The notes under the pieces were generated by a model, which made no database searches, had not been told where the DNA came from, and worked only from the letters and a program-made list of their open reading frames with translations. Below, piece by piece: positions 24,014-46,568 of a DNA stretch of 64,000 bases (the first letter of the stretch is position 1; the number at the start of each line of letters is the position of its first letter). Source of the stretch: Acinetobacter sp. (GTDB lineage Bacteria > Pseudomonadota > Gammaproteobacteria > Pseudomonadales > Moraxellaceae); assembly GCA_031277915.1 (NCBI GenBank), contig JAITLL010000018.1:62001-126000 (forward strand). The letters run 5' to 3'. Both the position numbers and the translations under genes were made by a program.

Positions 24014-24077
24014 GTGATGTGCCGAGCATGATAGCTCCATGACTTTTATTGTTCAAGATAAAAGTAATTATTATTTA

Positions 24078-24096
24078 TATAATGATAATCATTATT
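24078..24096. promoter_or_regulatory. Strong Fur box in front of the RND pump
   Basis: These 19 bases match 17 of 19 positions of the Fur consensus GATAATGATAATCATTATC by my count. The box lies about 80 bases upstream of the RND pump start and can also act on the divergent receptor gene. Confidence 0.8.
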
Positions 24097-28264: not shown

Positions 28265-28284
28265 CAAATTTTTCCTTTTTATCT

Positions 28285-29949
28285 TTAAGCAAGAACATTG
28301 GTGTTGGTTTCAAATTGTTGACGTAATCTTTTTTTGTCGATTTTTCCAAAGGCTGTATATGGAAATTGCTCGATAAATTCGACTCGATCGGGAATTTTGT
28401 AGGTTGCAAGTCCATAGTCTTTCAGATGTTGACGAACTGACATTGCAAGACGAATTGGGCTTGGATCATCAGCGTGTGCTTGCCATGCAACAAACGCACA
28501 GCTCTTTTCACCCATGATTTCATCAGGCATAGCGACCAGTGCTGCTAAACGAATTTGTGGATGAGTTAATAAAGCTTGTTCAACTTCTTCTGTCGCAATT
28601 TTTTCACCAGCGCGATTGATTTGTTCCTTTGAACGGCCTTCCACAACAATGCAGCCATCTTCGCGAATACGTACTAAATCGCCTGTTCGATAAAAACCAT
28701 CCGGTGTAAAAGATCGTGCATTGTGTTCTGGTGCTTGATAATAGCCACGAATGGTATAGGGACCGCGCGTTAGCAAATGCCCTACCTCTCCAGCGTCTAC
28801 TGGCTGATCATTATCATTCAGTACTAAAATTTCATCATCTAGTGAGATTTTTAAACCTTGGGTATGGATAATTTGCTCTTTCGTCATGTCAGAATGGGTG
28901 TAATTCACCAGCCCTTCAGCCATGCCAAAAACTTGTTGTAGATTGACTTGGAACTCATCAATCAAGCGTGTGGCAACTGCATCGGGTAAACGCGCTCCTC
29001 CGACTTGTAAGCAACGCAGAGCCGACAATATTGGATCTTTATCTTTTGCCGCTTTATCCATCCATGGGCGAACCAAAGCAGGAACCAAGCAAGCATCAGT
29101 CACACCGTGTTTTTTGATCAATGAAAAAGCCGTTTCAGGGCTTGGGTCAGTGCCTAAAACCACAGCCCCGCCCGAATAAAAAATACCTAAAGAACCAGCT
29201 GAGCTCATTGAAAAGTTATGCGCCGCGGGTAAAACCATGAGTAAACGTGATGACTGATTGAGACGGCAGATTTTTGCGCTTTCACGTACGCTATATAGAT
29301 AGTCGTCATGAGTGCGTGGAATCAGTTTAGGAACACCAGTACTTCCACCTGAAAGTTGTAAGAAAGCAACTTGATCTGCCGTAGTTGGCGAGATGGCTTC
29401 ATCCACAATACTGGTTTCTTTTAATAGATCTTGAATAGCTACATATTTGTCGGCATTTCCGAGGACAAATATATGTTGTAAGCAAGGAGCAGTTTGCTGA
29501 AGCTTTTCGGCGAGCTCTCGGTAGTCAAATTTTTGTGCACCAAAATCAGCACAGAAATAAGCTTTTGCTTGAGTTTGTTTAAAAAAACTACTGAGTTCTG
29601 CAAAGCGATGTGCAGGTAAAGACATCACAGGTAAAGCACCAAGCCGAATCAGTGCAAAAAATAAAACATAGAACTGATAGTGATTTGGCATCTGTACAAC
29701 TGCTTTATCACCCGCTCTTAGTCCATGTTGATATAAGTGGCTTGTGCAGTAATCAACTAAATGATCAAATTCAGCGTAACTAACGGCTTTATCACCATCA
29801 TATACTGCAATATTTTGCGGATATTTTTGAGCACTTTCACGCAAGAAATCACTCAAGTTTTGCCCAAGCCAATAACCTTTTTTACGGTAAATCTCAGCAA
29901 ATTCTGCTGGATATGGCACTGCACCATCCAAATAAACCTGTGTTGTCAT
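28285..29949 (-). CDS. entE: 2,3-dihydroxybenzoate-AMP ligase, EntE-like
   Basis: The 554-residue stand-alone adenylation enzyme activates 2,3-dihydroxybenzoate as the acyl adenylate and loads it onto the carrier domain of EntB. The nucleotide-binding loop is LQLSGGSTGVPKLIPRTHDDY, followed by the ANL-family motifs VFGMAEGLVNYT, YRTGDLVR and GRSKEQINRAGEKIA, with the catalytic Lys in YTAFGKIDKKRL. It overlaps the entC stop by four bases (ATGA) and precedes entB by 20 bases. Identification is secure for an aryl-acid ligase of this pathway. Confidence 0.95.
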   Translation of the reverse strand: MTTQVYLDGAVPYPAEFAEIYRKKGYWLGQNLSDFLRESAQKYPQNIAVYDGDKAVSYAEFDHLVDYCTSHLYQHGLRAGDKAVVQMPNHYQFYVLFFALIRLGALPVMSLPAHRFAELSSFFKQTQAKAYFCADFGAQKFDYRELAEKLQQTAPCLQHIFVLGNADKYVAIQDLLKETSIVDEAISPTTADQVAFLQLSGGSTGVPKLIPRTHDDYLYSVRESAKICRLNQSSRLLMVLPAAHNFSMSSAGSLGIFYSGGAVVLGTDPSPETAFSLIKKHGVTDACLVPALVRPWMDKAAKDKDPILSALRCLQVGGARLPDAVATRLIDEFQVNLQQVFGMAEGLVNYTHSDMTKEQIIHTQGLKISLDDEILVLNDNDQPVDAGEVGHLLTRGPYTIRGYYQAPEHNARSFTPDGFYRTGDLVRIREDGCIVVEGRSKEQINRAGEKIATEEVEQALLTHPQIRLAALVAMPDEIMGEKSCAFVAWQAHADDPSPIRLAMSVRQHLKDYGLATYKIPDRVEFIEQFPYTAFGKIDKKRLRQQFETNTNVLA

Positions 29950-31184
29950 GTGTTTGGTCCTTGTATTGGCAATTGATTGGGTGAAATCTGGAATCCGTCC
30001 AGCACAGTGCGAAATTTAGCGGCAGTTTCAGCATGTTCAGCTTGTGGACGAGAAGCTTCCACAATGCCTGCACCGGCAAATAAACGGGCAATGTTCTGAT
30101 AAATTCGGGCACAGCGGACAGTCACCGACCATTCACCATTACCTTGTTCATCTGCCCAGCCCATAGTTCCTGCAAATAATTCACGGTTAAATGGTTCAAG
30201 TTGCTGAATTAGTTCTTTCGCAATTGGACTGGGCTCCCCACAAATTGCAGGTGTTGGGTGTAAACGTTCAATTAAGTCAAAAACATGAGTATCAGCTTGC
30301 TTAAGTTCACCAGTAATGTGTGATGCCAAGTGCCAAAGGCGTTTGGTACGAATGAGGGATGGTTGCTTAGGTACTTTTAACTGCTTACAAAAAGGTGTGA
30401 GCTCATCGGCAATCATTTCGATGACGAGTGCATGCTCATGTTGATCTTTTTGTGAAGCAAGTAATGCTCTAGCGTTATTTTGGTCTAGGGTTGGATCGTC
30501 ATCACGGGCCAATGTGCCAGCAACCGGTTTACTCCAGATTTTTGTATTTTGCTTTGCAATTAAAAGTTCGGGGCTTGCACCGACAAACCATCCTTCACTT
30601 TGAGGATGCCTCGCGACTGCATAGTTATAGCCTTCGGGATTATGCTTAGCTAAGTTATAAAATAAGTCCGAGACGGGAATATTTTGTTCAAATTCAAGTT
30701 GTAAAATACGAGCAAGTACGGCTTTATCGAGTTTTTTTGCTTGCATTTGCTGAACTAAATACTCAACTTGCTGTTGGTAATGTTCACCTAAAGGGAAATA
30801 ATCAGCCTTTTTTAAAGATAAAGAACCAAAATCAATATCAGATTGTGCATAGAGTACTTTCTGATAGATTTTTGCATTTTGCATCAACATTAAATTGACA
30901 TCGGCTGCCGAGCAAAATGGTAAACCACCCATAATTTTGACGTCTTTATAACCGTCATTCATTGCAAGTTGTAATTGAGCTCGTGCTTCATCTAACCAAT
31001 CTTTTAAAAGGCTATTTTTAGCGACTTGAATATCGCGTAATTTTTGATGACTATTGATGGTGTATTCTGGCGTGGTAAAAATAAAACCTGCGTCATTTCC
31101 ACAATTCAAAATTTCTTGCGCTAGTGCAACGCGGCTTTCAGTAAAATTTTCTCGTTGGATAAAATACGGATGCTGTGCCGACAT
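29946..31184 (-). CDS. entC: Isochorismate synthase, EntC-like
   Basis: The 412-residue chorismate-binding enzyme converts chorismate to isochorismate. Visible motifs include SKPVAGTLARDDD, EHALVIEMIADEL, HPTPAICGEP and the C-terminal FAGAGIVEASRP with the glutamates that hold magnesium. A GGAG lies 8 bases before the ATG. It lies second in the operon after entA and is translationally coupled to entE. Confidence 0.94.
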   Translation of the reverse strand: MSAQHPYFIQRENFTESRVALAQEILNCGNDAGFIFTTPEYTINSHQKLRDIQVAKNSLLKDWLDEARAQLQLAMNDGYKDVKIMGGLPFCSAADVNLMLMQNAKIYQKVLYAQSDIDFGSLSLKKADYFPLGEHYQQQVEYLVQQMQAKKLDKAVLARILQLEFEQNIPVSDLFYNLAKHNPEGYNYAVARHPQSEGWFVGASPELLIAKQNTKIWSKPVAGTLARDDDPTLDQNNARALLASQKDQHEHALVIEMIADELTPFCKQLKVPKQPSLIRTKRLWHLASHITGELKQADTHVFDLIERLHPTPAICGEPSPIAKELIQQLEPFNRELFAGTMGWADEQGNGEWSVTVRCARIYQNIARLFAGAGIVEASRPQAEHAETAAKFRTVLDGFQISPNQLPIQGPNT

Positions 31185-31228: not shown

Positions 31229-31999
31229 TTAAACGCCTAAAGTGGCTCCTCCATCAACCACAATTTCTTGCATGGTAATTTGTGCAGCTTGATCAGAAAG
31301 TAAAAAGCTGACCGTATTGGCAATATCTTCAGGCTGGGCTAATTTTCTTAAGGGAATGCCTGTACGGTATTGGCTTAAATCTCCATCGATTACCGCAGGC
31401 GGAGGTGAATTATCTGTCCAAAGCTGCTGCTGCATTTGAGTTAGCGTAGAGCCTGGTGAAACAATATTAAGCCTTACTTGATGAGGTGCAATTTCAAGCG
31501 CAAGATTACGGCAGTAATGGCTCAACGCAGCCTTGCTGGTGGCATACATACCAAGTTGTATACGTGGCATACGTGAACTATTCGAGCTAATCGTGACAAT
31601 ACTTCCCTGCTTTTTTTCACAAAAATGCTTGGCAAGTTGTTGACTAATTGCAATAGGTGCCATGACATTTACAGCGAAAAGTGTTTGCCAGTCTTCTGTT
31701 TTTGCTTCAAGCATAGAACGCATAATCAATACGCCCGCTGCATTCACTAAACCCGTTACGCTATGTTTGTTTAAAATATCTTTAATGAGCTTCGCTGTTG
31801 TTTCTTGATCAGTAATATCTTGCTGAAAGCCTTCCCAACGTGTGATTTCACTGTCTTGTAGCTTTTGAGTGACTTCCCATTGTTCGGGTTTTTCCTGTCG
31901 GTCGATGCCGATGACTTGATACCCTTGCTGCAATAATTTTTTTGCAATAGCAGCTCCAATACCTCTTGCAGCACCTGTGACTACGATGGTAGAGCTCAT
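31229..31999 (-). CDS. entA: 2,3-dihydro-2,3-dihydroxybenzoate dehydrogenase, EntA-like
   Basis: The 256-residue short-chain dehydrogenase oxidises the dihydrodiol to 2,3-dihydroxybenzoate with NAD. It shows TGAARGIGAAIA, NAAG, the catalytic Ser in TISSNSS and the YATSK catalytic Tyr and Lys. TGGAGTAAAAC precedes the start. It is the first gene of the operon, whereas E. coli has entA last, so the gene order has been rearranged. A Fur-type box lies about 45-65 bases upstream. Confidence 0.93.
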   Translation of the reverse strand: MSSTIVVTGAARGIGAAIAKKLLQQGYQVIGIDRQEKPEQWEVTQKLQDSEITRWEGFQQDITDQETTAKLIKDILNKHSVTGLVNAAGVLIMRSMLEAKTEDWQTLFAVNVMAPIAISQQLAKHFCEKKQGSIVTISSNSSRMPRIQLGMYATSKAALSHYCRNLALEIAPHQVRLNIVSPGSTLTQMQQQLWTDNSPPPAVIDGDLSQYRTGIPLRKLAQPEDIANTVSFLLSDQAAQITMQEIVVDGGATLGV

Positions 32000-32185: not shown

Positions 32186-32227
32186 TATAATGATAATTGT
32201 TTCCATTTACTAATGAGAATCATTTTG
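32186..32227. promoter_or_regulatory. Two adjacent Fur boxes in front of fes
   Basis: A box at 32186-32204 (core AATGATAAT) and another at 32209-32227 (AATGAGAATCATT) each match 14 of 19 consensus positions. They lie 40-80 bases before the fes ATG and probably control the fes-mbtH-NRPS-entS operon. Confidence 0.7.
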
Positions 32228-32265
32228 TTAATTTGACCGCGCTTTCTTGTCGAGATGGACTCAAA

Positions 32266-33465
32266 ATGAAGCCATTTTCTCATCCCTTACATCCCCTATT
32301 TCAACAACTCAATGTTGGGAGTGAGGTCTGGTGGAATACCGTTAAAAAAATAGGTAGTCCGCTAGTTAACCTACAAAAAAATAAAGCGCTATATACCTTT
32401 GTTTGGCATAGTCCTGAGCCTAAAGAAAGTATCTTTGTTTATATTGATATCTATTCACAGAGCCCTTCTATCTATCAAAAGTGGAATCGTTTTAGCCATA
32501 TAACTGGAACAAATGTGTACTTCTTTGAAATAGAGCTGCCCCTAGCTTGGACTGGTAGTTATGTTGTAGTTACTGCTAGTGAAGAAGCGCCAGAAACAGA
32601 TTGTGCAGCAACACGACGCTTATGGTGGCAAACACAGCTTAAACAAAATGCTCAAATTGACTCATTCAATCAACATGAGTTTTATACGGGACATCTGGCC
32701 CGATACATCAATCAAATTCAACTCGAAAACACAAAATCTTTCATAGACGATTGCCCAATTACAAAGACATTTCAATGGTCAAGTCGCTTATGCCAACAGG
32801 ACTATTTAGTTGACATTTTTATTAGTCATCGATCGACTCAAGAAGTCTTGCCACTTGTCATATTGCTTGATGGCCAAATATGGAGTCGAGAGCTTTCAAT
32901 TCTGCCCGAAATTCAACATTTAACTATTTCAAACAAGATTCGCCCAGCAGTTTATGTTTTTGTTCATAGTTTAAATAGTCAACAACGCCAACAAGATTAT
33001 GGTTGTCATGATTCGTTTAGTCAGGCGTTGGTTGATGAACTCATTGAAATACTTATAAAAGAATATTCTTTTATTTCTAAAACAGACATTACGTTATGTG
33101 GTCAAAGTTTAGGTGGTTTATGTGCTTTACATAGTACTTTGTTGTTCCCGACCATTTTTACTTCCCTGATTTTGCAGTCTGGATCTTATTGGTGGTCAGA
33201 TTTCTCAAACAGTATTTTAGGGCAAAAGCATAAAGGTAATCTTTTAGAACTGCTTCAAAACCTATCTCATCCATTATCAAAAACAACTCAAATCTATATC
33301 AGTGCCGGCACGTATGAAACCGATATGCGGGACGATGCCCTTCAGCTTTATCAACAATTGCAATCATTCAATCAAGTAAGTTTTCACAGTTTTTCAGGCG
33401 GACATGATGCTGTGAACTGGCGTACCGACTTGCTTAAGGCATTGCAACAAACTCTTTCACTATAA
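32266..33465 (+). CDS. fes: Catecholate siderophore esterase, Fes-like
   Basis: The 399-residue cytoplasmic esterase has an N-terminal immunoglobulin-like domain and a C-terminal alpha/beta hydrolase domain with the nucleophile in CGQSLGGLCAL and a late SGGHDAVNW for the catalytic His. Fes hydrolyses serine trilactones such as enterobactin after import, releasing iron. An open frame reaches a TTG at 32197, but that codon lies inside a Fur box, so I use the ATG at 32266, which gives the length of known Fes proteins. Presence of a Fes is indirect evidence that the product contains serine ester bonds. Confidence 0.88.
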   Translation: MKPFSHPLHPLFQQLNVGSEVWWNTVKKIGSPLVNLQKNKALYTFVWHSPEPKESIFVYIDIYSQSPSIYQKWNRFSHITGTNVYFFEIELPLAWTGSYVVVTASEEAPETDCAATRRLWWQTQLKQNAQIDSFNQHEFYTGHLARYINQIQLENTKSFIDDCPITKTFQWSSRLCQQDYLVDIFISHRSTQEVLPLVILLDGQIWSRELSILPEIQHLTISNKIRPAVYVFVHSLNSQQRQQDYGCHDSFSQALVDELIEILIKEYSFISKTDITLCGQSLGGLCALHSTLLFPTIFTSLILQSGSYWWSDFSNSILGQKHKGNLLELLQNLSHPLSKTTQIYISAGTYETDMRDDALQLYQQLQSFNQVSFHSFSGGHDAVNWRTDLLKALQQTLSL

Positions 33466-33494: not shown

Positions 33495-33710
33495 ATGAGC
33501 AACTTACAGGAAAACTATATTAATCCTTTCGATAATGAAAGTTTGTCTTTTCAGGTTTTAAAAAATCAACAAGGTGAGTTCAGTTTATGGCCTGCTCAAC
33601 ATCAGGTGCCATCGGGGTGGGATATTCAGCATGGACCAGATACACGAGCTTCGTGTATTGCATATGTAGAAAAGCATTGGGTTGCTATTAACCCCTTTCA
33701 ACAAGCGTAA
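33495..33710 (+). CDS. MbtH-family NRPS helper protein
   Basis: The 71-residue protein shows the MbtH signature: NPFDNE, QGEFSLWP, VPSGWDIQHGP and the conserved Trp in HWVAINPF. MbtH proteins bind adenylation domains and are needed for folding or activity. It lies 29 bases after fes and 12 bases before the NRPS gene, exactly where ybdZ stands in enterobactin clusters. Confidence 0.95.
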   Translation: MSNLQENYINPFDNESLSFQVLKNQQGEFSLWPAQHQVPSGWDIQHGPDTRASCIAYVEKHWVAINPFQQA

Positions 33711-33722
33711 AGGAGTATTGTC

Positions 33723-36700
33723 ATGAATCAAGCATTAAACAATGAATTTACTCCAGATATTTCTCAACCAGCTCGCTTTGAATTGGCATCTACTCAGCTC
33801 GGTATTTTTCTTGCCGATCATTTAAGTTCAATTGAAGATTTATATACCATTGCGCATTGTTTGGAACTACCAAAAACTGTCGACCTCCCAACATTTAAAA
33901 AAGCAATTCAAATCGGCTTGAGTGAAGCTGATACGGTCATTGCTTCATATTCATCTGACCCATCTCAACCGTTTATTGAGCTTAGCAACCAAATTCAGTT
34001 TAAAATTGAAGAATTTGATTTTTGTCATTTAACTCCCAAAAAAGCTCAGCAACGTTTATGGGACTGGATGCCATCAGATCGTCAATGTGCTAAATCACTT
34101 AAAACGGGTGAATCTCAACTGTTTCGTCAGGTGTTATTTACGACGCATGATAAAGTGTATTGGTATCAACGCTATCACCACATCATGCTTGATGGCTTTA
34201 GCATGATTAACCTGACCAAACGTATTGTTGAACTCTATCAACAATTACAAGAAGAAAAAGACCTTTCAGCTTCTCCGTTCATTGGCGTCAATGATGTTAT
34301 TTCTGAGCGTCAGGCTTATGAAAATAGCCATCAATTTAAAATAGACCAAGCTTTCTGGAAGGCATATTGTGAAGATTTACCTAGTCCAGTTAGTTTAAGT
34401 ACTCATCATTTAGCAGCAAAAACCACAGCGACATTTATTAAGCATCAGCTGCGTTTTTCGACAGGGATTTTAGAGCAGATTCAAGCTTTAGCTGCGCAAT
34501 CTAAATTAGCTTTGAATGACATGATGATGTCATTGTCATTACATTATATTTACAAAGTGACCGATAAAGCTGATTTAGTTAATGGTATTCCATTCATGCG
34601 CCGTTTAGGTTCAAAAGCGATTCGCTCAACCTTACCTACGGTAAATGTGTTGCCTGTGAAGTTTAAAGTTGCTGAAAAAGACAGTTGGGTAAGCTTGGCT
34701 CAACATGTACAAGAGCAATTACGACAAATTCGTCCGCATCAGAAATACGATGCTGAACAAATTTTAAGAGATTTAAATAGTATCGATATTCATGAACGAA
34801 TGTACGGCCCTATTTTAAACTATAAAGCTTTTGATCAAGACTTGATCTTAGATGGTGAAAAGGTCAAAACACACCATATTTCTACAGGACCAATTGATGA
34901 TTTTGAGTTTTCTTTTATTGTTCAAGATCATGAACTCATTATCGAACTACGTGCAGATTCGCAGCGTTATACACAAGATGAACTATTTAACCATGGTCAA
35001 CGCTTAACTTTATTGCTTGAACAAGCTCTAATTCGTCCAGAACAGGCATGTAGCAATTTTAATATTACGACACCACAAGAGCTTGCTACCTTGACTCAAA
35101 GTGGTATTGGTCCACGTGTTAGCCATCCTGAACAATATAATAATGTTCTAGATATTTTTTATGAGCAAATTAAAAAGTATCCCGAACGTACCGCAATTGT
35201 GAGTGGTGAACGTCCAAACCTTCAGCATCTTAGTTTTGCTGAGCTTGCGGTACAAGTAAATCAACTCACTCGTTTTTTACAAGAAAATGGGGCCAAAAAG
35301 CAAACTGTCATTGCTGGAGCTATTCCTCGTTCGATTGACTCAGTTGTGGTGATGTTATCTGTACTCAATTCTGGTGCGAGTTTCTTACCTCTCGATTTAG
35401 ATTATCCAATCGATCGTATGCAAATGATGTGTGAAGATGCAAATCCACTATTTGTATTAACTACACAAGCTCTTGCACAGCAACTACCAGAAAATATTCA
35501 GCAGTTATATCTTGATCATGAAGATGTTCAAACGCAAATTCGAAAGCAAGATGCGAGTGATATTCCTGCCGAAAATCGTAAATTTGATTTCCAAGACGTT
35601 GCTTATGTAATTTTTACCTCAGGTAGTACTGGCCGTCCTAAAGGGGTAATGAACACACATGGTTCTTTGCTCAACCTCATTTTGTCACATAAACCAACCA
35701 TTTACTGGCCTGTATTAGAAGCTGTAAATGAGCGTTTCCCTGAGCGTCCGTTACGTGCAGCGCATACACACTCTTTCTCATTTGACTCATCTTGGCTACA
35801 AGTTTTCTGGATGCTCTGGGGCCAAGAGCTACATATTTTTGATGAAAACATGCGTCGTGATGCATTTGGTTTAGTGCAAGAAATTCAGCAACGACAAATC
35901 GATACACTTGATTTACCGCCATCTTTTTGTGCGCAAATGATGACGAATGGTTTATTTGCTGAAAATCAGCATCAACCCAGTCTTATTTTGATTGGTGGCG
36001 AAGCTGCACCGTTAGCTTTATGGCAACAGCTGAATGCTCAGCCAGCGCTTTTTGCACATAACTTATATGGCCCAACAGAATATACGGTTGATACTTTCCG
36101 AGCAGAATTAAAACAGACAGCTCGCCCTGTCATTGGTAACCCTATTGGTAATACACAGGCCTATGTACTAGATCGCCACTTGCAACGATGCTCAACTGGT
36201 GTCATTGGTGAGCTTTATATTTCTGGTTTTGGGATTGCCAATGGTTATTTAGGTCGCGCTGACTTAAGTGCTGCCCGTTTTGTAGCGAATCCATTTGAAC
36301 ATGGACAGCGCATGTACCGTACAGGTGATTTAGTCCGCTGGAATAGCGCGGGTAAACTTGAATTTATGGGGCGCTGTGATGACCAGATTAAAATTCGTGG
36401 TTATCGAGTTGAGATTGGTGAAGTTGAAAATGCACTTTCGATTTTAGCCAATGTTGAAAGTGCAGTCGTGATTGCAGAACCGATTAATAACAGTCATCGT
36501 TTACTCGGTTATTGTGTGGTCAAAGACATTGAACTTGATGAAAAAACCAGTGAGCAATTAAGTCAGCAATATTTAAGTCAGTTACGTCAAAACTTACCTG
36601 AATATATGGTGCCTTCTGCCCTGACTGTTATGTCCGAATTTCCACGAAATGTAAGTGGTAAAGTCGATAAAAAAGCACTGCCAAAGCCTCAAATTCGTAC

Positions 36701-39700
36701 CCATAGCCGAATGGCCGAAACGTCTGAACAACAACTTTTATGTCAAATTACTGCATCTGTTCTTAAGCTTGACGCAATTGGAATTGATGACGACTTCTTT
36801 ATGACAGGTGGCGATAGTATTTCGGCCATTATGCTTTGTACTCAATTACGCCAACGTGGTTACGGCTTAAGACCAAGTGATGTATTCCAATTTAAAACAG
36901 TCGCCGCTATGGCACCGCAACTCACCCGTTTAGATGAACAACAAACGGCTGTTTCAAAACCGTTATTTTCAGCAGACCTAGAACAAAAGGTTCAAGAAAA
37001 ATATGGAAAAAACAGCACTATTTTACCTTTGCTTCCTTTGCAAAAAGGCATGCTGTTCTTATCTCAAGTAGAAAATCAATCGAACTATAATGCCTTTACT
37101 CGTCTTAGTTTAAATGGAGATATTGATCCAGTACGTTTGCAGCAAGCGTTGATTACCGTATTAAAACGTCACCCTCAATTAGGCGGACATTTTGATAGTG
37201 AATTAACTGAAGAACCTGTTTTTATCTATTCATTACATCCTACTCAAGCTTGGCCAGTTCAGTTTTGCTCAGTCACTCCCGATCTGCTTGAGCAAACCAT
37301 TCAAGAAGCATTGCAGCAACCGATTCACCTCGACCAACCCTATGGCTTAATTCGGGCAACCTTAATTCAACATGCTCCAGAACATTCAGAATTATTGATT
37401 ATGGTGCATCATCTGTTAACAGATGGTTGGTCAACTCCGCTGTTTTTACAAGACTTTATTAAAGCCTATCAGCAAACTAATCAACAATTACCTGTGCTTG
37501 AATATAGTTATGAAACAGTAATTAAAGCTTTATCTGGACGTGACCATGAAACATCAAAAGTAATTTGGCAACGTGATTTAGCAGATTTACAGCCACTTAT
37601 TTTATTTAATCAAGCACAGCAAGCTGTACAGGAAACTTCATATCGTTTAAGTGCTGAGTTGGGTGCGAAACTTCAACACAAATTACGCCAGCAAGGCATC
37701 ACGCTCAATGTCTTCATGCAAATGATTTGGGCAATGACTTTAAATATTTATGCTCATCGTGAAGATATTGTGTTTGGTACTCCTGTTTCTGGGCGTTCAG
37801 CACCTATCAATGGCTTAGATCAGCAGATCGGATTGTTTTTAAATACGATTCCAGTGCGTGTAAAGCTCAACATGCAGCAAACACTTTGGGAACAATTGAC
37901 TCAGTTACAGCAATTGCATGTTGAACATTTAGAACATGATGGTTTAGGACTGGGTGCAATTCAGCAATTGATGGCTCAAGGTAATCTTTTCGATAGTTTG
38001 TTAGTCGTAGAAAACTACCCTGATAACCAGTATTTACAGCAAAAACTTGGTGATGCTGCGATTTCAAAACTCACAAATCGTGGTTATAGCCATTACCCGC
38101 TTGCTTTGCTGGTTATTCCCGATCATCAAATTGAGCTATTACTCGAACAGCGTGGTGTAATTGATCAACCAGAACATTTTCTTAAGCGAATGGTTCAATT
38201 GATTGAAATTGCATTAAATGAACCAGAGACGTCTCTTGGTCACTATCGATTACAACTGGCTGAAGAGCACGAATTAATCCAGAAAACGAATCAAACCCAA
38301 TACTATGTTCGTCAGAGCACGTTACAGCAATTACTCAGAGAACAAGCTCGAATTACTCCTGAACAAACGGCATTATCTGATGAAAATCATCAGCTCAGTT
38401 TCAGTGAAGTGCGTTTGCAAGTTTGTGCTTTAGCACAGCAATTACAAAGCGCGGGTGTACAGGCTGGAGATATTGTTGCGGTTGCCCTACCAAGATCAGT
38501 CAAACTGAGTATCGCTATTTTAGCAGTGATTGAAGCAGGTGCGGCTTATTTACCTATTGATTTACAACATCCGTCTGAACGCATCAAATTTATGTTGCAG
38601 GATGCCAAATCTAAACTTGTGATTGGTGAACAAAAAGATCTAGCTGCTATTGCCTCTACATCAATAACTACCTTTGCTTTTAATGAATTGTTTGATGAAA
38701 CAAAAGTTGATTTAAGCAGCTATAAAACAACAGTCATTACGCCACAGCATCCGGCATATTTAATCTATACATCAGGTACAACAGGCCAGCCAAAAGGTGT
38801 TATGGTTTCTCACCAAGCCATTGTGAACCGTATTTTATGGATGCAATCAGAGTATCCAATATCAGCAGCCGATACAATTTTACAAAAAACGCCATGCACT
38901 TTTGATGTTTCGGTATGGGAGTTTTTCTGGTCATATTTAGTGGGTGCACGATTGGTTATGGCACCTATGGATGCACATCGTGATCCATTGGCATTATTAA
39001 GCCTCATTCAAAAATATCAGGTAACAACATTACATTTTGTACCGTCAATGTTGGCTGTTTTTGAAAATGCTGCTACCGAAATTTTGTCATCTGCTCAGCG
39101 TCAAAGTTTGCCAATCCGCCGAGTGTTTTGTAGTGGTGAGGCATTACCAACGGCTTTAGCAAAATCATTTACTGAACACTTTAACTGTGAATTGCATAAC
39201 TTATATGGCCCAACAGAAGCTGCGGTAGATGTGAGTTATATGGATGTAACTCAAGAATTAGACTCTAAAGAAAACAGTATTGCTATTGGTTATCCAGTCT
39301 GGAATACCCAGCTTTATATTTTAGACCAATATTTACGCCCTGTTCCTGTTGGAGTGGACGGTGAGCTTTATTTAGCAGGTCATCAACTGGCCATGGGTTA
39401 TTTACATCGAGCAGACTTAACGGCAACAAGTTTTGTGGCTAACCCATTTGCAGCAGGTCAACGCATGTACCGCACTGGTGATATTGCTCGCTGGCATGCT
39501 GACGGTCGTATTCAATATGTGGGCCGTGCTGATGACCAGTTAAAGATACGTGGGCAACGTATTGAATTGGGTGAAATTGAACAGCAATTACGCTTACTCA
39601 GTGGTCTTGATGTGGTTGTACATCCTATCTCTTCTGAGCAAAATAAAGCAGATGTTCAATTGGTCGCTTACTTGCAAACAACTGCACCTGTGGACATCGA

Positions 39701-40874
39701 CCAGTTAAAGAAACAATTGGCGAAACAGCTTCCTGCATATATGGTGCCGACACACTATATGTTGGTCGAGCAATTTCCATTAAGTCATAATGGTAAGCTG
39801 GACCGTAAAGCACTGCCGCAACCACAACTTAACCCTTCAAATACAGAAAAACAGTACGCCACCACTGCTTTTGAACATGAACTGACACGTATTTTCCAGC
39901 AAATTTTAAATACAGATCAGAATATTGGTGTTAACGAAGATTTCTTTGCCATTGGTGGGCACTCCATTTTGGTGATGAAGCTTGCAATTGAAATCCGAAA
40001 AGTATTTAAGCGGACCATTCCAATTGGCCAATTGATGAGTCATGTCACGATTCAACGTTTAGCAGCTTTACTGCTTACACAAGAACGTTTAGCAGAAGTT
40101 GAACAAACTGGTATGCAACCTATTTTACCAATCCGTTCTGGCTCAGGGCATCCATTGTTCTGTTTCTTCCCTGGTTCTGGTTCGGCATGGCAATATACGG
40201 TTCTGAATCGTTATCTGCATTCTGATTTACCCATTATTGGATTGCAGTCACCTCGACCAGATGGCCTATTGGCAAATAGTACTGATATGGACGAATTGGT
40301 TGAAAAACAACTTGAGATTATGCGTAAGCAACAACCAACCGGACCTTATACTTTATTAGGTTATTCACTTGGCGGCACGGTGGCTTATGCAGTTGCAGCG
40401 AAGTTAACTGAACAAGGTGAAAAAGTTGATTATCTCGGCTTATTAGACACTTACCCTGCTGAAATTCATCAGTGGTTAGATTTATCTGTCGAGGAAATGA
40501 ATGCTGAAGCTGAACAAGAACAGCTTCAATTCTTCAATGATATTTTAGCCGATGCAGATACGGCTTTAAGTGAAGAAACCCGCCGTTTACAAGAGGATAT
40601 TTTCGCAAACTATCGCGATGCGGTCCGTTTATTAAAACCTTATAAAATGCCAAACTTTGATGGTGAACTACACTTAGTTGTCGCTGAAAAAGACTTGCTG
40701 CCGTATATCCAACCAGAACAACAATGGTCACCTTTAGTTAAAAAACTTAATATTGTTCGACTAAGCGAAGCGGACCATACCGATATATTGTCTCCACAGC
40801 AGCTTGAAACACTTGGTCCGATTTTAAACCGCATGATTTGTCAGGCGCGCGGTTTAGAGGAGCATACGCCATGA
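33723..40874 (+). CDS. Two-module siderophore NRPS with thioesterase (C-A-T-C-A-T-TE)
   Basis: The 2383-residue synthetase has condensation domain 1 (HH152-153, MLDG), adenylation 1 (SGSTG at 633-637), carrier 1 (GGDS, Ser1032), condensation 2 (HH1229-1230, LLTDG), adenylation 2 (SGTTG from 1684), carrier 2 (GGHS, Ser2081) and thioesterase (GYSLG, Ser2215). Adenylation 2 reads D1728 V1729 W1732 H1771 F1802 S1804 L1827 V1835 D1836, the EntF serine code. Adenylation 1 reads D688 S689 L692 D730 L756 G758 L781 V789 D790, two extra acidic residues suggesting a basic amino acid. Size and order resemble DhbF of bacillibactin, but the codes are not Gly-Thr. There is no separate epimerisation domain. 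Confidence 0.93.
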   Translation: MNQALNNEFTPDISQPARFELASTQLGIFLADHLSSIEDLYTIAHCLELPKTVDLPTFKKAIQIGLSEADTVIASYSSDPSQPFIELSNQIQFKIEEFDFCHLTPKKAQQRLWDWMPSDRQCAKSLKTGESQLFRQVLFTTHDKVYWYQRYHHIMLDGFSMINLTKRIVELYQQLQEEKDLSASPFIGVNDVISERQAYENSHQFKIDQAFWKAYCEDLPSPVSLSTHHLAAKTTATFIKHQLRFSTGILEQIQALAAQSKLALNDMMMSLSLHYIYKVTDKADLVNGIPFMRRLGSKAIRSTLPTVNVLPVKFKVAEKDSWVSLAQHVQEQLRQIRPHQKYDAEQILRDLNSIDIHERMYGPILNYKAFDQDLILDGEKVKTHHISTGPIDDFEFSFIVQDHELIIELRADSQRYTQDELFNHGQRLTLLLEQALIRPEQACSNFNITTPQELATLTQSGIGPRVSHPEQYNNVLDIFYEQIKKYPERTAIVSGERPNLQHLSFAELAVQVNQLTRFLQENGAKKQTVIAGAIPRSIDSVVVMLSVLNSGASFLPLDLDYPIDRMQMMCEDANPLFVLTTQALAQQLPENIQQLYLDHEDVQTQIRKQDASDIPAENRKFDFQDVAYVIFTSGSTGRPKGVMNTHGSLLNLILSHKPTIYWPVLEAVNERFPERPLRAAHTHSFSFDSSWLQVFWMLWGQELHIFDENMRRDAFGLVQEIQQRQIDTLDLPPSFCAQMMTNGLFAENQHQPSLILIGGEAAPLALWQQLNAQPALFAHNLYGPTEYTVDTFRAELKQTARPVIGNPIGNTQAYVLDRHLQRCSTGVIGELYISGFGIANGYLGRADLSAARFVANPFEHGQRMYRTGDLVRWNSAGKLEFMGRCDDQIKIRGYRVEIGEVENALSILANVESAVVIAEPINNSHRLLGYCVVKDIELDEKTSEQLSQQYLSQLRQNLPEYMVPSALTVMSEFPRNVSGKVDKKALPKPQIRTHSRMAETSEQQLLCQITASVLKLDAIGIDDDFFMTGGDSISAIMLCTQLRQRGYGLRPSDVFQFKTVAAMAPQLTRLDEQQTAVSKPLFSADLEQKVQEKYGKNSTILPLLPLQKGMLFLSQVENQSNYNAFTRLSLNGDIDPVRLQQALITVLKRHPQLGGHFDSELTEEPVFIYSLHPTQAWPVQFCSVTPDLLEQTIQEALQQPIHLDQPYGLIRATLIQHAPEHSELLIMVHHLLTDGWSTPLFLQDFIKAYQQTNQQLPVLEYSYETVIKALSGRDHETSKVIWQRDLADLQPLILFNQAQQAVQETSYRLSAELGAKLQHKLRQQGITLNVFMQMIWAMTLNIYAHREDIVFGTPVSGRSAPINGLDQQIGLFLNTIPVRVKLNMQQTLWEQLTQLQQLHVEHLEHDGLGLGAIQQLMAQGNLFDSLLVVENYPDNQYLQQKLGDAAISKLTNRGYSHYPLALLVIPDHQIELLLEQRGVIDQPEHFLKRMVQLIEIALNEPETSLGHYRLQLAEEHELIQKTNQTQYYVRQSTLQQLLREQARITPEQTALSDENHQLSFSEVRLQVCALAQQLQSAGVQAGDIVAVALPRSVKLSIAILAVIEAGAAYLPIDLQHPSERIKFMLQDAKSKLVIGEQKDLAAIASTSITTFAFNELFDETKVDLSSYKTTVITPQHPAYLIYTSGTTGQPKGVMVSHQAIVNRILWMQSEYPISAADTILQKTPCTFDVSVWEFFWSYLVGARLVMAPMDAHRDPLALLSLIQKYQVTTLHFVPSMLAVFENAATEILSSAQRQSLPIRRVFCSGEALPTALAKSFTEHFNCELHNLYGPTEAAVDVSYMDVTQELDSKENSIAIGYPVWNTQLYILDQYLRPVPVGVDGELYLAGHQLAMGYLHRADLTATSFVANPFAAGQRMYRTGDIARWHADGRIQYVGRADDQLKIRGQRIELGEIEQQLRLLSGLDVVVHPISSEQNKADVQLVAYLQTTAPVDIDQLKKQLAKQLPAYMVPTHYMLVEQFPLSHNGKLDRKALPQPQLNPSNTEKQYATTAFEHELTRIFQQILNTDQNIGVNEDFFAIGGHSILVMKLAIEIRKVFKRTIPIGQLMSHVTIQRLAALLLTQERLAEVEQTGMQPILPIRSGSGHPLFCFFPGSGSAWQYTVLNRYLHSDLPIIGLQSPRPDGLLANSTDMDELVEKQLEIMRKQQPTGPYTLLGYSLGGTVAYAVAAKLTEQGEKVDYLGLLDTYPAEIHQWLDLSVEEMNAEAEQEQLQFFNDILADADTALSEETRRLQEDIFANYRDAVRLLKPYKMPNFDGELHLVVAEKDLLPYIQPEQQWSPLVKKLNIVRLSEADHTDILSPQQLETLGPILNRMICQARGLEEHTP

Positions 40875-42121
40875 GCTTCAAATCTATATTGACCGATTTT
40901 AGTCTTTTAAGACGTAATGCTCATTTCCGACATGTATTTATTGCCCGCACATTGTCATTGTTAACAATTGGCATGTTGGTCGTGGCTATTCCAAAACAAG
41001 TCTACGACATTACGGGTAGTTCGTTAAATGTTGCAGTTGCAATGGCTTTTGAAGGCATTGCCATGTTTATTGGCTTGTTACTTGGTGGTTTGCTGTCAGA
41101 TCGCAAAGATCGAAAATGGCTGATTTTATTGGCACGTGGTGTGTGTGGTTTAGGCTTTGCAGGCCTCGCCATCAACGCCATGTTTGAGCACCCTTCGCTC
41201 TATGCTATTTATTTTTTATCGGCATGGGATGGTTTCTTTGGTGCACTGGGTGTAACCGCAATGATGGCGATCATGCCTGTGATTGTAGGGCGCGAAAATA
41301 TTGTACAAGCCCGTGCGATCAGTATGGTATCCGTACGTCTTGCAACTGTTATTTCACCAGCAATCGGCGGTATTTTAATTGCGGTTAGTGGTGTAGCAAC
41401 TGTGTATTGGGTCTCAACCGTGGGTACTTTACTCACTGTGTTTTTATTAATGGGGCTGCCTGCACTTAAACCACAACATGCATCAAATGGTGAGAGTCCT
41501 CTTCGCCAATTAGCTCAAGGGTTTAAATTTGTTTTTAAAAATAAAGTGGTTGGTAGCACCATTTTAATTGGAACACTGCTCAGTTTTAGCAGTGCTATTC
41601 GTATTATTTTTCCGCAAATGGCAGATGAAATTTTTCACGGTGGCGCATTTGAACTCGGACTTATGTATTCAACCGTTCCGTTAGGCTCGACTTTAGGCGC
41701 CTTATTGAGTGGATGGACAACAAGGTTACTTCGACCCGGCTTAGTTATGCTCTATACGTGCTTAGGTGTTTTTAGCTGCATGATTATGATTGGACTTTCA
41801 CCGTGGCTCATCGTGACTTTACCAATTTTATGTGTGTTTGGATATTTGATGTCGATTGCCAACTTGCTTCAATACAGTATTGTGCAAGGACATACACCTG
41901 ATGAATATCTAGGCCGTATTAACGCAATCTGGCTCGCACAAGATGCGTTAGGCGATTCGATTGCAACCACAACTTTAGGTCTTTTAACTCGGTTTTTACC
42001 AATATCAGGAAGTATCCTCTTCTTTGGTATATTAAGCTTTGCAGTAGGATTTATGTTCTTATTCAACTCTCAAGATATGCGTGAAACAGGGTTCCAAGAT
42101 CCTAAATTACAAGAAAATTAA
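40871..42121 (+). CDS. MFS siderophore exporter, EntS-like
   Basis: The product of about 416 residues is a 12-helix major facilitator with the loop LLSDRKDRKW between helices 2 and 3. EntS-type exporters move catecholates from the cytoplasm to the periplasm. I chose the ATG at 40871, which overlaps the NRPS stop as ATGA and has GAGG 11 bases upstream; a longer frame starts at 40838 inside the NRPS and is unlikely. As the last gene of the fes operon it is translationally coupled to the synthetase. Confidence 0.88.
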   Translation: MSFKSILTDFSLLRRNAHFRHVFIARTLSLLTIGMLVVAIPKQVYDITGSSLNVAVAMAFEGIAMFIGLLLGGLLSDRKDRKWLILLARGVCGLGFAGLAINAMFEHPSLYAIYFLSAWDGFFGALGVTAMMAIMPVIVGRENIVQARAISMVSVRLATVISPAIGGILIAVSGVATVYWVSTVGTLLTVFLLMGLPALKPQHASNGESPLRQLAQGFKFVFKNKVVGSTILIGTLLSFSSAIRIIFPQMADEIFHGGAFELGLMYSTVPLGSTLGALLSGWTTRLLRPGLVMLYTCLGVFSCMIMIGLSPWLIVTLPILCVFGYLMSIANLLQYSIVQGHTPDEYLGRINAIWLAQDALGDSIATTTLGLLTRFLPISGSILFFGILSFAVGFMFLFNSQDMRETGFQDPKLQEN

Positions 42122-42161: not shown

Positions 42162-42908
42162 TTAAGCAAAATTTCGTGCCTGAAAAACCCAAGTCATAAT
42201 ATGGTCCTGCTCTACAGTCCAGCCACCTTGATATTGTTCTAAGAGTTGATAGCGCTGTTGAATTTCTGGCAAAAAAGTTAGCGTTAATGTTTGATTTTCA
42301 AAATTAATATCAACTAGAGATGCTTCTAAGAAATCGATATATTGCTTTGCAGTGGGATAAACCGCTTTATATAGACTTTCCTTTATAGAAAAAATTAAGC
42401 TCACATAACGGGCAAAATCAAAAAACTCAGCCGCTTTACCTTTCCATAAATCAAACTCAGATGGCGTTAAAACAAGATGTGCACTCTCTTGAGCAAATTC
42501 TGAGGTCACCCAGTGCTCAATATCAATTCCCAAATAAATCGCATTACAAGATAACGCAACAATTAAATTATTTTGTGAATGACTAATACTCCCCAAAACA
42601 TGGGATGGCCAAATGGGCAAAGGTTCGTACATTGAGGTTATTGGCTGATCTAAACCGAAATGATGATTTAAAACTGCCTGAGCTAATACTCTGCCACATA
42701 AGTACTCATTTTTACGTTCGACACGCGCTTGAGCAATTTTTAGGGGATGCTCTAATCGTTGGTCTATATGCAAATGCGTTGTTTGCGATAAATCTAGCTC
42801 ATAACAAAATAGCTCTGATGTAAGAAAAATAGGACTCGAAATTTCATAAATTGATTTACTGATTTGTTCAGGAATGTATAGATAATGACTCACTGTATTC
42901 GACTTCAA
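42162..42908 (-). CDS. entD: 4'-phosphopantetheinyl transferase, EntD-like
   Basis: The 248-residue enzyme attaches the phosphopantetheine arm to the carrier domains of EntB and the NRPS. The magnesium and CoA motifs are LGIDIEHW and IFSIKESLYKAVYP; the N-terminal region has RKNEYLCGRVLA. It stands alone on the minus strand between the exporter and the membrane reductase set. The region upstream, shared with the divergent 43053 gene, contains a Fur-type box, which fits iron regulation. Confidence 0.88.
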   Translation of the reverse strand: MKSNTVSHYLYIPEQISKSIYEISSPIFLTSELFCYELDLSQTTHLHIDQRLEHPLKIAQARVERKNEYLCGRVLAQAVLNHHFGLDQPITSMYEPLPIWPSHVLGSISHSQNNLIVALSCNAIYLGIDIEHWVTSEFAQESAHLVLTPSEFDLWKGKAAEFFDFARYVSLIFSIKESLYKAVYPTAKQYIDFLEASLVDINFENQTLTLTFLPEIQQRYQLLEQYQGGWTVEQDHIMTWVFQARNFA

Positions 42909-43599: not shown

Positions 43600-45204
43600 A
43601 TGAAAGTACGTTCAGACATCATGAAATTAGCAAAAAGCATGCATACTTGGGTGGGTGTATGTGCAGGAATTTTGCTTTTTATCTGTTTCTTTGCTGGTGG
43701 GCTCAGCATGTTTCAGCACCATATTAGTAAGTGGGCTACGCCAACACAGCAAGTTTTACCGAAAGTCTCACCCAATCAATATAATGAGCTTATTCAAAAA
43801 GTACAGACTGCCTATCCTGCTGCGCAAAAGAACTTCACACTAAATTTATCGTCCAATGAATTTCACTATGCACCTATTACGTGGAGTGAACATGAACGTG
43901 GAGATGGCTTTAATGCGGCTCAGTCTACGTGGATGGCAAGCTTAGATGATAAAGGTCAGTTAATCGTTGCCCAAGAAAACCTATCTAAAGCTGGCTGGCT
44001 AATTGAACAGTTACATGAAACAGCAGGCATACCGGGCATGGCAGGCCATCACGGATTAGGTCTCTATGTGATGGGCGTGGTTTCAATTTTATATTTTCTT
44101 GCCCTGCTTTCAGGAGTGATCATACTTTTACCAACCTTGGTAAAGGATTACTTTGTTATTCGCCCTGGTAAAAATAAAAAGCGATTTTGGCTAGATGCGC
44201 ATAACGTTATTGGAATTACGAGTTTACCTTTCCACATCATTATTAGTATTAGCGTTATTGTCTTTGCTTTTCATGACCTTTTTTATGATGCGATTGGACA
44301 ACTTGCACTCAAAGGACAGCCTGTTTTTCAGCGTTCTCCCCCTGCGCTTATTCAGCCTAAACAAACACAGATTAATGTGCAGCAAATACTAGCTCAAGCT
44401 AAAAAAGTAGCACCTGAATATTCAGTTGACTATATCCAGTTCAGTGGCTTAGATAAACCTGAAAAAGCCAATGCACGTATTGCTCTCTATAGCTCAGATC
44501 AGATGTTGCGTGGTGCAAATCATGACTTTATGCGTATGAACCCATATGCAGTTGAGCACTTTAACCATAAAGGCATTAACACACAGACTGATGCTGGGAA
44601 TAAGTTAATCAACGCCATGTTTAGCCTACATTTTGGAAGTTTTGGTGGTACGGGCGTACGTTGGATTTATTTTGTGTTAGGTGTCGGTGGCGCTTTCTTG
44701 TTTTATACAGGTAACATCCTTTGGGTTGAAACTCGTGCACGTAAGCAAAAGCGTGCTGAAGATCCTATTCCTGTTCAACGTAAAGATGTAGTGTTCCTTG
44801 CGAATTTAACTATAGGTGCATGTTTAGGGTGTGTTTTAGCTGTCGTAGGTACAATGTTGGCCAGTCGTTGGCTTTTCGCTACACTCAATATTGAAAGCAT
44901 GAATCACCTCTTTATGTATGATTATTATGCGATTTTCCTACTGAGTTTGATTTATACCTTTGTGATTGGCTATGCAAAAGCTTTACCACAACTGCTGTTA
45001 ACCTTGGTTTTGGTGTTATTTGCAATTCCGCTTACATCCCTTTTAGCCTACCTCATTCCTCAAAGTGGCTTATGGGTACATGGTGGAGAAATCTTAGTGG
45101 TTGATTTCTTAGCTATCATTTTTGCTTTCGCTTTCTGGCGTTTTTATCAACAAGCCCAAGATCGTCGAAAATCTGCTCCAACGGGCAGTTTATGGGCTAG
45201 CTAA
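43600..45204 (+). CDS. PepSY-domain iron-regulated membrane protein, candidate ferric-siderophore reductase
   Basis: The 534-residue protein begins with a membrane helix preceded by MKLAKSMHTWVGVCAG, has a large periplasmic region of PepSY type, then a second set of helices with HHGLGLYVMG, and conserved histidines such as WLDAHNVIGI and FSLHFGSFGGTGVR that may hold haem or metal. It resembles FpvG, which reduces ferripyoverdine in the Pseudomonas periplasm. Since no ABC importer lies in this locus, reduction of the ferric catecholate in the periplasm is a plausible route for iron release. The gene ends 46 bases before the converging modC. Confidence 0.75.
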   Translation: MKVRSDIMKLAKSMHTWVGVCAGILLFICFFAGGLSMFQHHISKWATPTQQVLPKVSPNQYNELIQKVQTAYPAAQKNFTLNLSSNEFHYAPITWSEHERGDGFNAAQSTWMASLDDKGQLIVAQENLSKAGWLIEQLHETAGIPGMAGHHGLGLYVMGVVSILYFLALLSGVIILLPTLVKDYFVIRPGKNKKRFWLDAHNVIGITSLPFHIIISISVIVFAFHDLFYDAIGQLALKGQPVFQRSPPALIQPKQTQINVQQILAQAKKVAPEYSVDYIQFSGLDKPEKANARIALYSSDQMLRGANHDFMRMNPYAVEHFNHKGINTQTDAGNKLINAMFSLHFGSFGGTGVRWIYFVLGVGGAFLFYTGNILWVETRARKQKRAEDPIPVQRKDVVFLANLTIGACLGCVLAVVGTMLASRWLFATLNIESMNHLFMYDYYAIFLLSLIYTFVIGYAKALPQLLLTLVLVLFAIPLTSLLAYLIPQSGLWVHGGEILVVDFLAIIFAFAFWRFYQQAQDRRKSAPTGSLWAS

Positions 45205-45250: not shown

Positions 45251-45871
45251 TTATAAAATCCACATTGTTTCAGTCAGTTGTTTAATTTCTTGAATATCAT
45301 GACTCACATAAATCATCGGAATTTTTATTTCCTCTTTTACTTTCTGAAAAAAAGGAATAATTTCAGCTTTATGATTCGCATCTAGTGCTGATAATGGCTC
45401 ATCAAGGAGTAACAGCTTAGGTGAATATAACAATGCTCGACCCAGTGCTACGCGCTGCTTTTCCCCTCCTGAGAGTTTGATGGGCATACGTTGTAATAAG
45501 TGCCCTAACTTTAATAACTCAATAATATAATCTGCTTCAAAGTGACGTTCTTGTTGGGAAAGATGCTTAAGACCAAATAATAAGTTTTGCTTTACCGTTT
45601 TATGCGGAAAAAGCTGAGCATCTTGAAAAACCAATCCAACATGCCGCTTTTGTGTACTCAAGTTAATGTTTTGATCTGAATCAAACCATGTTTGATCCTG
45701 TATTTTAATGAGCCCACTACGCGGAGTGTTCAGCCCTGCAATGGCATGTAGAATTGATGTTTTACCTGACCCAGAGGCACCAAATAATCCAATAACAGCA
45801 GCATCTGACTCGAAACTAGGTTCACTATGAAATTGACCCATGTGTAGCTGAAAACGGCATTCAATTAACAT
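45251..45871 (-). CDS. modC: Molybdate ABC transporter ATPase ModC, short form
   Basis: The 206-residue ATPase has Walker A GASGSGKTS, the signature LSGGEKQRVALGRAL, Walker B LLLLDEPLSAL and the switch VSHDIQEI. E. coli ModC is about 350 residues because of a C-terminal TOBE-type molybdate-binding domain, which is absent here: the sequence ends shortly after the ATPase core. It lies 4 bases after modB and closes the modABC operon. The lack of the regulatory domain suggests no trans-inhibition of transport by molybdate. Confidence 0.88.
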   Translation of the reverse strand: MLIECRFQLHMGQFHSEPSFESDAAVIGLFGASGSGKTSILHAIAGLNTPRSGLIKIQDQTWFDSDQNINLSTQKRHVGLVFQDAQLFPHKTVKQNLLFGLKHLSQQERHFEADYIIELLKLGHLLQRMPIKLSGGEKQRVALGRALLYSPKLLLLDEPLSALDANHKAEIIPFFQKVKEEIKIPMIYVSHDIQEIKQLTETMWIL

Positions 45872-45875
45872 ATTT

Positions 45876-46568
45876 CTACCGCCCTAAGCGCCTCTTTTGA
45901 TAACGATGAAACCACTGTGCAAACCATAGGGCTAAAAAAGCCACGCTTAACGATAAAATGATAAGCCGTTGAATAGCGGCTTCTGTATCGGGTTGTTGCA
46001 TTAGGCTATACATGGCCAAAGGTAAAGTACGTGTTTCATTTGAAATATTACCCACAAAGGTAATGGTCGCACCAAACTCACCTAAACTGCGGCAAAAACA
46101 TAAAATAGCACCAATTAAAATGCCACTGCTGGCAAGAGGCATCGTGACATGAAAAAATGCCCCTAAAGATGAAGCACCTAATGTCTTTGCTGCCATTTCT
46201 AAACGCTGATCGACCAGTTCAATCGCTAGCCGAATAGATTGTACCAATAGCGGGAAACCCATCACTGCTGATGCAAGAACGGCGCCTTTCCAGTTAAATG
46301 CAAAATCAATTCCAAGCGGTGCCAAATATTGTCCAATAATGCCGCGGCTCCCAAAAACTTGTAAAAGCAAATAACCAGGTACAACTGGCGGTAATACCAA
46401 AGGTAAAAACACCAATGTTTCAATGAATGACTTACCCCAGAACTCTTTACGTGCCAAAAACCATCCCACACAAATTGCAGGAATAATACTGATTACAAGA
46501 CAACTTGCTGCAACCTTACAAGAAAGTTGCAGAACGCTGAGTTCTTCTGGGGTTAAAGAAAACATCAT
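45876..46568 (-). CDS. modB: Molybdate ABC transporter permease ModB
   Basis: The 230-residue inner-membrane permease has five to six helices and the cytoplasmic EAA-type loop AAKTLGASSLGAFFHVTMPLASSGIL that contacts ModC. The FLPLVLPPVVPGYLLL segment is typical of ModB. Its start overlaps the modA stop by four bases. Confidence 0.93.
   Translation of the reverse strand: MMFSLTPEELSVLQLSCKVAASCLVISIIPAICVGWFLARKEFWGKSFIETLVFLPLVLPPVVPGYLLLQVFGSRGIIGQYLAPLGIDFAFNWKGAVLASAVMGFPLLVQSIRLAIELVDQRLEMAAKTLGASSLGAFFHVTMPLASSGILIGAILCFCRSLGEFGATITFVGNISNETRTLPLAMYSLMQQPDTEAAIQRLIILSLSVAFLALWFAQWFHRYQKRRLGR

Follow-up and report, generated by a model that had tools for sequence, protein, structure and literature searches.

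The window, by which we mean the whole stretch of 64,000 nucleotides of Acinetobacter sp. DNA analysed here, harbours a siderophore-type gene cluster built around a large nonribosomal peptide synthetase (NRPS; 33723..40874, forward strand). On one side of the NRPS lie entA, entC, entE, entB, and genes for an RND pump, a CirA-like receptor and a Fur-family protein; fes and mbtH are located upstream of the NRPS gene, while downstream come entS, entD and the gene for a PepSY-TM protein, followed by modC, modB and modA.

The Fur-family regulator at the left edge (21458..21859, reverse strand; Pfam FUR, 57 bits) is also present in A. baumannii, with 86% identity in locus L167. The OM73/CirA-like TonB-dependent receptor (22000..23961, reverse) carries the Pfam Plug and beta-barrel domains and scores 286 bits against NCBIfam CirA, below the cut-off of 745. 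It is divergent from the P114-like RND transporter of the AcrB type (24179..27340, forward; Pfam ACR_tran, 1053.9 bits), which shares 46% identity with the RND gene of the loci in genomes G722 and G800, probably Teredinibacter (turnerbactin, tnb locus), to judge from their code, which is that of TnbF, and from a gene order like that of the turnerbactin locus. No adaptor gene adjoins the RND gene of the window, unlike in the turnerbactin and Azospirillum loci. Four genes on the reverse strand belong to the 2,3-dihydroxybenzoate (DHB) families: EntB/DhbB, with isochorismatase and aryl carrier domains (27395..28267; Pfam Isochorismatase and PP-binding); EntE/DhbE, the DHB-AMP ligase (28285..29949; TIGR02275, 680.2 bits for a cut-off of 723.55); EntC/DhbC, the isochorismate synthase (29946..31184; TIGR00543, 279.9 bits, above the cut-off of 224.75); and EntA/DhbA, the 2,3-dihydro-DHB dehydrogenase (31229..31999; TIGR04316, 296.4 bits for a cut-off of 300). 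On the forward strand, the Fes-like esterase (listed frame 32197..33465, first ATG at about 32266; PRK10439, 235.1 bits, above the cut-off of 222) precedes an MbtH-like protein (33495..33710; Pfam MbtH, 75 bits). The esterase is one of the cluster proteins that vary most between related genomes, with 49–50% identity in genomes G065 and G105 versus 79–80% for EntE. Beyond the NRPS, whose stop codon is overlapped by the entS ATG at 40871, come the EntS-type MFS exporter (40838..42121, forward; PRK10489, 574 bits, above the cut-off of 324), the EntD-type phosphopantetheinyl transferase (42162..42908, reverse; Pfam 4PPT_N and ACPS) and the PepSY-TM protein, a possible ferric-siderophore reductase (43600..45204, forward; Pfam PepSY_TM, 182.3 bits). 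The right flank (45251..47350, reverse), conserved in A. baumannii with 92–98% identity in L167, is formed by modC, modB and modA, names that were assigned from the protein sequences and that match the flanking genes given in PMC3343012.

The divergent om73/p114 promoter carries putative Fur boxes (23996..24096, no strand assigned) detected as consensus matches, and part of this region is kept as a stub in A. baumannii. The site at 24078-24096 has two mismatches to the 19-bp consensus, for which chance gives a mean of 0.04 matches per window, and was counted twice, once per strand, while the site at 23996-24010 has one mismatch to the 15-bp form. With up to three mismatches, the 15-bp form matched 23 times in the whole window versus 8.88 expected, with matches placed at the om73/p114 promoter, upstream of entA/fes and upstream of entD/pepSY. 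With regard to uptake across the inner membrane, a strong FecCD-type permease (Pfam PF01032) was not found in three cluster-bearing genomes, namely, that of the window (G000, 92% complete), G065 and G020, in which the best E-values were 4e-6, 5e-6 and 5e-8, respectively; each of the other eight cluster-bearing genomes tested has at least one. Iron may leave the ferric siderophore in the periplasm, perhaps via the PepSY-TM protein.

Domain order and substrate pockets of the NRPS

The NRPS open reading frame codes for 2383 residues, in which Pfam detected two Condensation, two AMP-binding and two PP-binding domains and one Thioesterase domain. Together with a motif check, this defines a two-module enzyme of the order C-A-T-C-A-T-TE, without an epimerase. 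Its catalytic motifs are all intact, with two copies of HHxxxDG, two of GG[DH]S and one of GYSLGG, and the Lys of the tenth pocket position is present in both A10 motifs (GKVDKK and GKLDRK).

The substrate-pocket region of the first adenylation domain, A1 (approximately 35628..36650, forward), reads DSLDLGLVD, and that of A2 (approximately 38769..39800, forward) reads DVWHFSLVD, the serine code. A first-pass annotation of the same DNA had given these two codes and had named other residues at the pocket positions as the finding that would count against them; alignments anchored on EntF (L057) yielded both codes unchanged. When applied to the probable Teredinibacter enzyme of G800, the same pipeline returned DSDDGGLVD and DVWHFSLVD, identical to the published TnbF codes. 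The A1 code is identical in 15 of 16 Acinetobacter enzymes, that of the window included, and the remaining one reads DSIDLGLVD, with Ile for Leu at position 239; this shared code argues against a chance pattern. A second, more divergent MAFFT alignment placed Trp at position 239 of A1, which was rejected as a gap artefact. Pairwise alignments of A1 with EntF and with the G800 enzyme, as well as the HMMER alignment to the solved LgrA, show no gap at this position, and Leu239 was retained on that ground.

Condensation-family stretches number two in the enzymes of the window, G800 and A. brasilense, and three in both long homologues scanned, where the third would be an epimerase, to judge from its position; Pfam was consulted for these two, and the other long homologues were judged on length. 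The spacing between A1 and A2 amounts to 1051 residues in the window NRPS versus 1501–1565 in seven long homologues. A vanchrobactin or chrysobactin synthetase, for which an epimerase is expected after module 1, was rejected since the window enzyme has two such stretches and not three.

Substrate of module 1 and predicted product

In the A1 tree, the window domain forms one group with those of G855, G681, G722/G800 and Azospirillum (SH 0.894), and a Ruegeria enzyme joins this group in the tree built from the complete first module (UFBoot 84); support inside the A1 clade is low (SH 0.46 and 0.263). The window enzyme, thus, groups with the probable TnbF and apart from the long, epimerase-type enzymes, none of which falls in its clade, with moderate support and under limited sampling. 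Enzymes with DSEDM- or DSEDI-type codes form a separate clade (UFBoot 100) and have an acidic residue at position 239, in contrast to Leu in the window. The Ruegeria enzyme, with the code DAEDLGAVD, lies inside the window clade in the first-module tree and elsewhere in the A1 tree; because an enzyme with a different code joins it, the clade may not share one substrate. The trees were built without Lys- or Arg-activating reference enzymes of known name. When genome contigs were scanned with the A1 alignment, the best 80 matches were mostly generic A domains, and no named CbsF, VabF or FreF appeared among the matches listed.

Two members of the window clade have reported chemistry. Turnerbactin is a linear (DHB-L-Orn-L-Ser)3, whose Orn and Ser were identified chemically (PMC3795760). 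In a partially characterised catecholate of A. brasilense, whose structure was not solved, DHB, Orn and Ser were present in equimolar amounts, as quoted second-hand in PMC3795760; this chemistry applies at the species level and is not linked to the gene cluster found in this species (L053). As both use Orn and the window enzyme has no epimerase domain, we favour L-Orn over Arg or Lys, the L form being argued from the missing epimerase, as in turnerbactin. A basic residue of some kind is very probably the substrate of module 1, and L-ornithine probably is the one. The first-pass proposal of a catecholate in which serine follows a basic residue is, thus, supported by the pocket codes and can be sharpened to L-Orn.

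The same assembly line could instead activate L-Lys in module 1, giving a frederiksenibactin-type product, or L-Arg. The acidic residues at positions 278 and 331 suit a basic side chain in general, and the arginine code cited in the first-pass annotation has both; further, A1 is slightly closer to the DSEDM/DSEDI-type enzymes outside its clade (46–50% identity) than to the G722/G800 domain (about 46%). However, the separation of those enzymes in the tree, their acidic residue at 239, and the Orn reported for both members of the window clade render this reading rather unlikely. A diamino acid with a shorter side chain, i.e. 2,4-diaminobutyrate or 2,3-diaminopropionate, would fit if Leu239 closed the bottom of the pocket: relative to TnbF, seven of nine code positions are identical, and the two substitutions, Leu for Asp at 239 and Leu for Gly at 299, are bulkier. 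Yet the A. brasilense enzyme has the identical code and a siderophore of that species contained Orn (PMC3795760), and no enzyme of diamino-acid biosynthesis occurs among the cluster proteins examined, so that we hold this option to be improbable. Enterobactin, the label given to the corresponding locus of A. baumannii strain 8399 in PMC7326120, draws on the homologues of EntA, B, C, D, E, F, S and Fes in the cluster. It is scarcely credible as the product, given the extra complete C-A-T module ahead of the serine module and the NRPS score of 1570.5 bits against an EntF equivalog cut-off of 2400. An enterobactin synthetase, which has a single C-A-T-TE module, was rejected on module count, as there are two modules here.

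The product of the locus is most likely a turnerbactin-type siderophore, (DHB-L-Orn-L-Ser)n. For the linear DHB-Orn-Ser series, the computed [M+H]+ values are 356.145 (monomer), 693.273 and 1030.400 (trimer); the same calculation for the Lys series gave 370.161, 721.304 and 1072.447, compared with published values of 370.17, 721.31 and 1072.44 (PMC8480324). The first-pass annotation had considered a trilactone because a thioesterase and Fes are present, which is possible but not indicated: the turnerbactin locus has both, and its product is linear (PMC3795760). Likewise, PMC8480324 describes trivanchrobactin and frederiksenibactin as linear and trichrysobactin as found also as a ring. Since systems of the TE/Fes type give linear products, with trichrysobactin also as a ring, the pair is not diagnostic of a ring.

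Based on the protein families, EntC, EntB and EntA would produce 2,3-dihydroxybenzoate, which EntE would load onto the carrier domain of EntB. The NRPS is proposed to couple it to L-ornithine (module 1, without epimerisation) and then to L-serine (module 2), and the thioesterase would join two or three units via serine esters, releasing mainly a linear oligomer. EntD would prime the carriers, and MbtH would help the A domains. Export could proceed through EntS, and possibly also the RND pump, and the CirA-like receptor would take up the ferric form, from which Fes, with the PepSY-TM protein, may liberate the iron.

Related loci and distribution

The turnerbactin locus of Teredinibacter turnerae, probably represented by G722/G800, resembles that of the window in the C-A-T-C-A-T-TE order without epimerase, in the identical Ser code and in the A1 code (7/9), and both loci contain entC, E, B and A, RND pump, esterase, MbtH, EntS, PepSY-TM and TonB receptor genes. 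They differ in gene order and in the moderate A1 identity (46%); the RND adaptor gene is absent from the window, and EntD, part of the window cluster, is absent from the turnerbactin cluster. The A. brasilense cluster L053, probably that of spirilobactin, has A1 and A2 codes identical to those of the window and the entC, E, B, A, MbtH, NRPS, Fes, EntS and RND genes, and among plasmid records it is the one with the full set and the same A1 code. It differs in A1 identity (54.5%), in its RND permease (a weak 23%) and in its location on a large plasmid. The chrysobactin, trivanchrobactin and frederiksenibactin synthetases, compared by description, follow the same logic of DHB, basic residue and Ser, but those of chrysobactin and trivanchrobactin incorporate a D residue by means of an E domain, unlike the window NRPS.

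Within Acinetobacter, the om73-entD cluster of A. baumannii 8399 was reportedly described by Dorsey in 2003 under AY149472, and its product is said to have been reported only as a catechol. By its description in PMC3859900, this cluster has the same inventory as the window, i.e. OM73, P114, DhbB/E/C/A/F, EntS, Fes and EntD. The locus, therefore, is of a known type, and the novelty here lies in the specific product prediction. The first-pass statement that the familiar A. baumannii clusters (acinetobactin, baumannoferrin and fimsbactin) differ in gene content was incomplete, as the 8399 cluster has the same gene set. As late as 2020, the latter was described as a catecholate system that had not been characterised (PMC7595644); it was not found in the ten sequenced genomes considered in 2011 (PMC3055841) and, in the survey of 2015, present in one isolate, a non-baumannii one (PMC4507327). 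A definite structure with exact masses would make the question of the 8399-type product testable by LC-MS.

The NRPS was found in 16 of the 150 Acinetobacter genomes drawn, the window's own counted, with 92–100% identity in 12 and 66–72% in 4; three further genomes matched solely via another NRPS (31–35%). At the level of the order, 28 of 390 genomes, including that of the window, passed an E-value of 1e-130; the closest enzyme outside the window's genome is 49% identical, and 10 others exceeded 35% identity over C1-A1. Among 369 genomes drawn evenly from the class, nothing beyond the window's own passed E <= 1e-150, and in the order to which G901 belongs (the genome with locus L139, from Enterobacter mori), 10 of 394 genomes passed 1e-180. 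Two enzymes, L157 and L158 (code DSEDMGFID without a gap; open frames of 2431 and 2423 residues), may be FreF-like by architecture. Three others (L163, L164 and L166; frames of 2430–2496 residues) belong by similarity to the DHB-X-Ser synthetases, with the first-module code DTDADCIVY or DTDANCIVY (no gap) and no acidic residue at 278 or 331, and form a clade of their own (UFBoot 100).

A probable remnant at the same site in A. baumannii

A search for near-identical DNA in the plasmid collection returned three A. baumannii chromosomes that matched just 3% of the cluster, two of which were read (L167 and L168); the collection holds whole A. baumannii chromosomes filed as plasmids, NZ_CP064203.1 (3.97 Mb) and NZ_CP077849.1 (3.66 Mb). 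In L167 and L168, gene order is kept from cls to beyond antABC, with 86–98% protein identity. The interval between fur and modC was found to contain only entB (213 residues, 84% identity, carrier domain missing) and entA (81%), which in L167 have the order and strand seen in the window, the other cluster genes being absent. This relic site, at L167 13050-15823 in A. baumannii X4-300, recurs in L168, L195, L196 and L197, which makes two A. baumannii chromosomes plus three related genomes (G004, G124 and G085), the latter within the reach of their contigs. In ATCC 19606 and other A. baumannii strains, the entA-entB pair described in PMC3343012 occupies the same site between fur and modC as the window cluster.

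At the DNA level, L167 is colinear with the window from fur to 21997, over a stub at 23948-24115, over entB (27635-28288) and entA (31209-32068), and again from modC at 45239. The stub corresponds to the om73/p114 promoter, is non-coding except for the om73 start, and is 73% identical (E 1e-18); it was also detected in G085 (E 2e-22) and G004 (E 5e-17), hence in all three relics compared as DNA (L167, L195 and L197). The entA tree places the relic genes within or beside those of the cluster-bearing genomes, in a group with a support of 1.000 that gives no support to their precise position. Had entA and entB arrived separately, one would hardly expect to find, colinear and in the same orientation, the promoter of two genes that are missing; this argues for deletion, and we read the A. 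baumannii entA and truncated entB as the probable scar of a window-type cluster. The 81–84% identity of entA and entB between the window and A. baumannii lies below that of the flanks (86–98%) and below that of entA among close cluster-bearing genomes (89–100%), and relic entA sits on a long branch, so that later recombination or faster change is required.

Among the close cluster-bearing genomes, surveyed without G109, the cluster lies beside fur in 10 of the 10 whose left side was read and beside modC in 3 of the 3 whose right side was read. Neither the 5'-nucleotidase gene nor modC adjoins the cluster in three of the four distant genomes, G105 (left side only), G065 and G020, so that the site itself may differ there; a distant Fur-family gene occurs at or near om73 in G065 (34%) and G105 (38%). 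With regard to the relics, the right flank is present in L167, L168 and G085, and the G124 contig ends after entA. In G004 (L195 2439-3722), a glycine-rich frame of 427 residues with a phage-tail-like look stands to the right of entA in the place of modC.

A 981-residue frame with two condensation-type matches is present in 3/3 relic genomes (G004, G124 and G085) and in 0/16 cluster-bearing ones, two of which (G053 and G136) have one other weak condensation match in a 432-residue frame. In G004, this 981-residue frame is adjoined by a histamine N-monooxygenase (TIGR04439, 841.2 bits, above the cut-off of 700), an enzyme that marks acinetobactin and, thus, points to the acinetobactin locus. The corresponding pair, an NRPS of about 980 residues with two condensation-type domains plus histamine N-monooxygenase, was not found in G000 (92% complete). 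Because the relic genomes are related, they represent one event rather than three, and numbers are small.

Penwell et al. (2012) reported the gene order modC-entA-entB-fur for ATCC 19606 and showed that acinetobactin depends on entA; they suggested horizontal transfer from different sources, and their main text makes no mention of 8399 (PMC3343012). A later study treats the entAB and acinetobactin clusters as confined to the A. calcoaceticus-baumannii clade and speaks of acinetobactin loss in A. nosocomialis and A. seifertii (PMC9162365); on that view acinetobactin may predate the relic, which leaves the timing of a replacement uncertain. We found no published link between the 8399 cluster and the orphan entA in the literature covered, which comprised mostly papers outside subscription. 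From these elements, we can propose as the likely scenario that a DHB-Orn-Ser catecholate ancestral to the A. calcoaceticus-baumannii group was replaced by acinetobactin in the A. baumannii lineage. The old cluster would have been deleted except for entA and the isochorismatase half of entB, with entA kept since acinetobactin needs it, and the orphan entA would be a scar and not a separate horizontal acquisition. If true, this would give a simple origin to a gene essential for acinetobactin and virulence, and would represent a case of one siderophore displacing another while retaining a gene of the old pathway.

The three condensation matches of G000 are accounted for by two in the window NRPS and one in a second, single-module NRPS (G000:C20:31831-35274) with a 1326-residue frame. 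A frame of 1326 or 1331 residues occurs in 13 of the 19 genomes examined and, going by its length, is perhaps the A. baumannii NRPS whose structure was solved as 4zxh.
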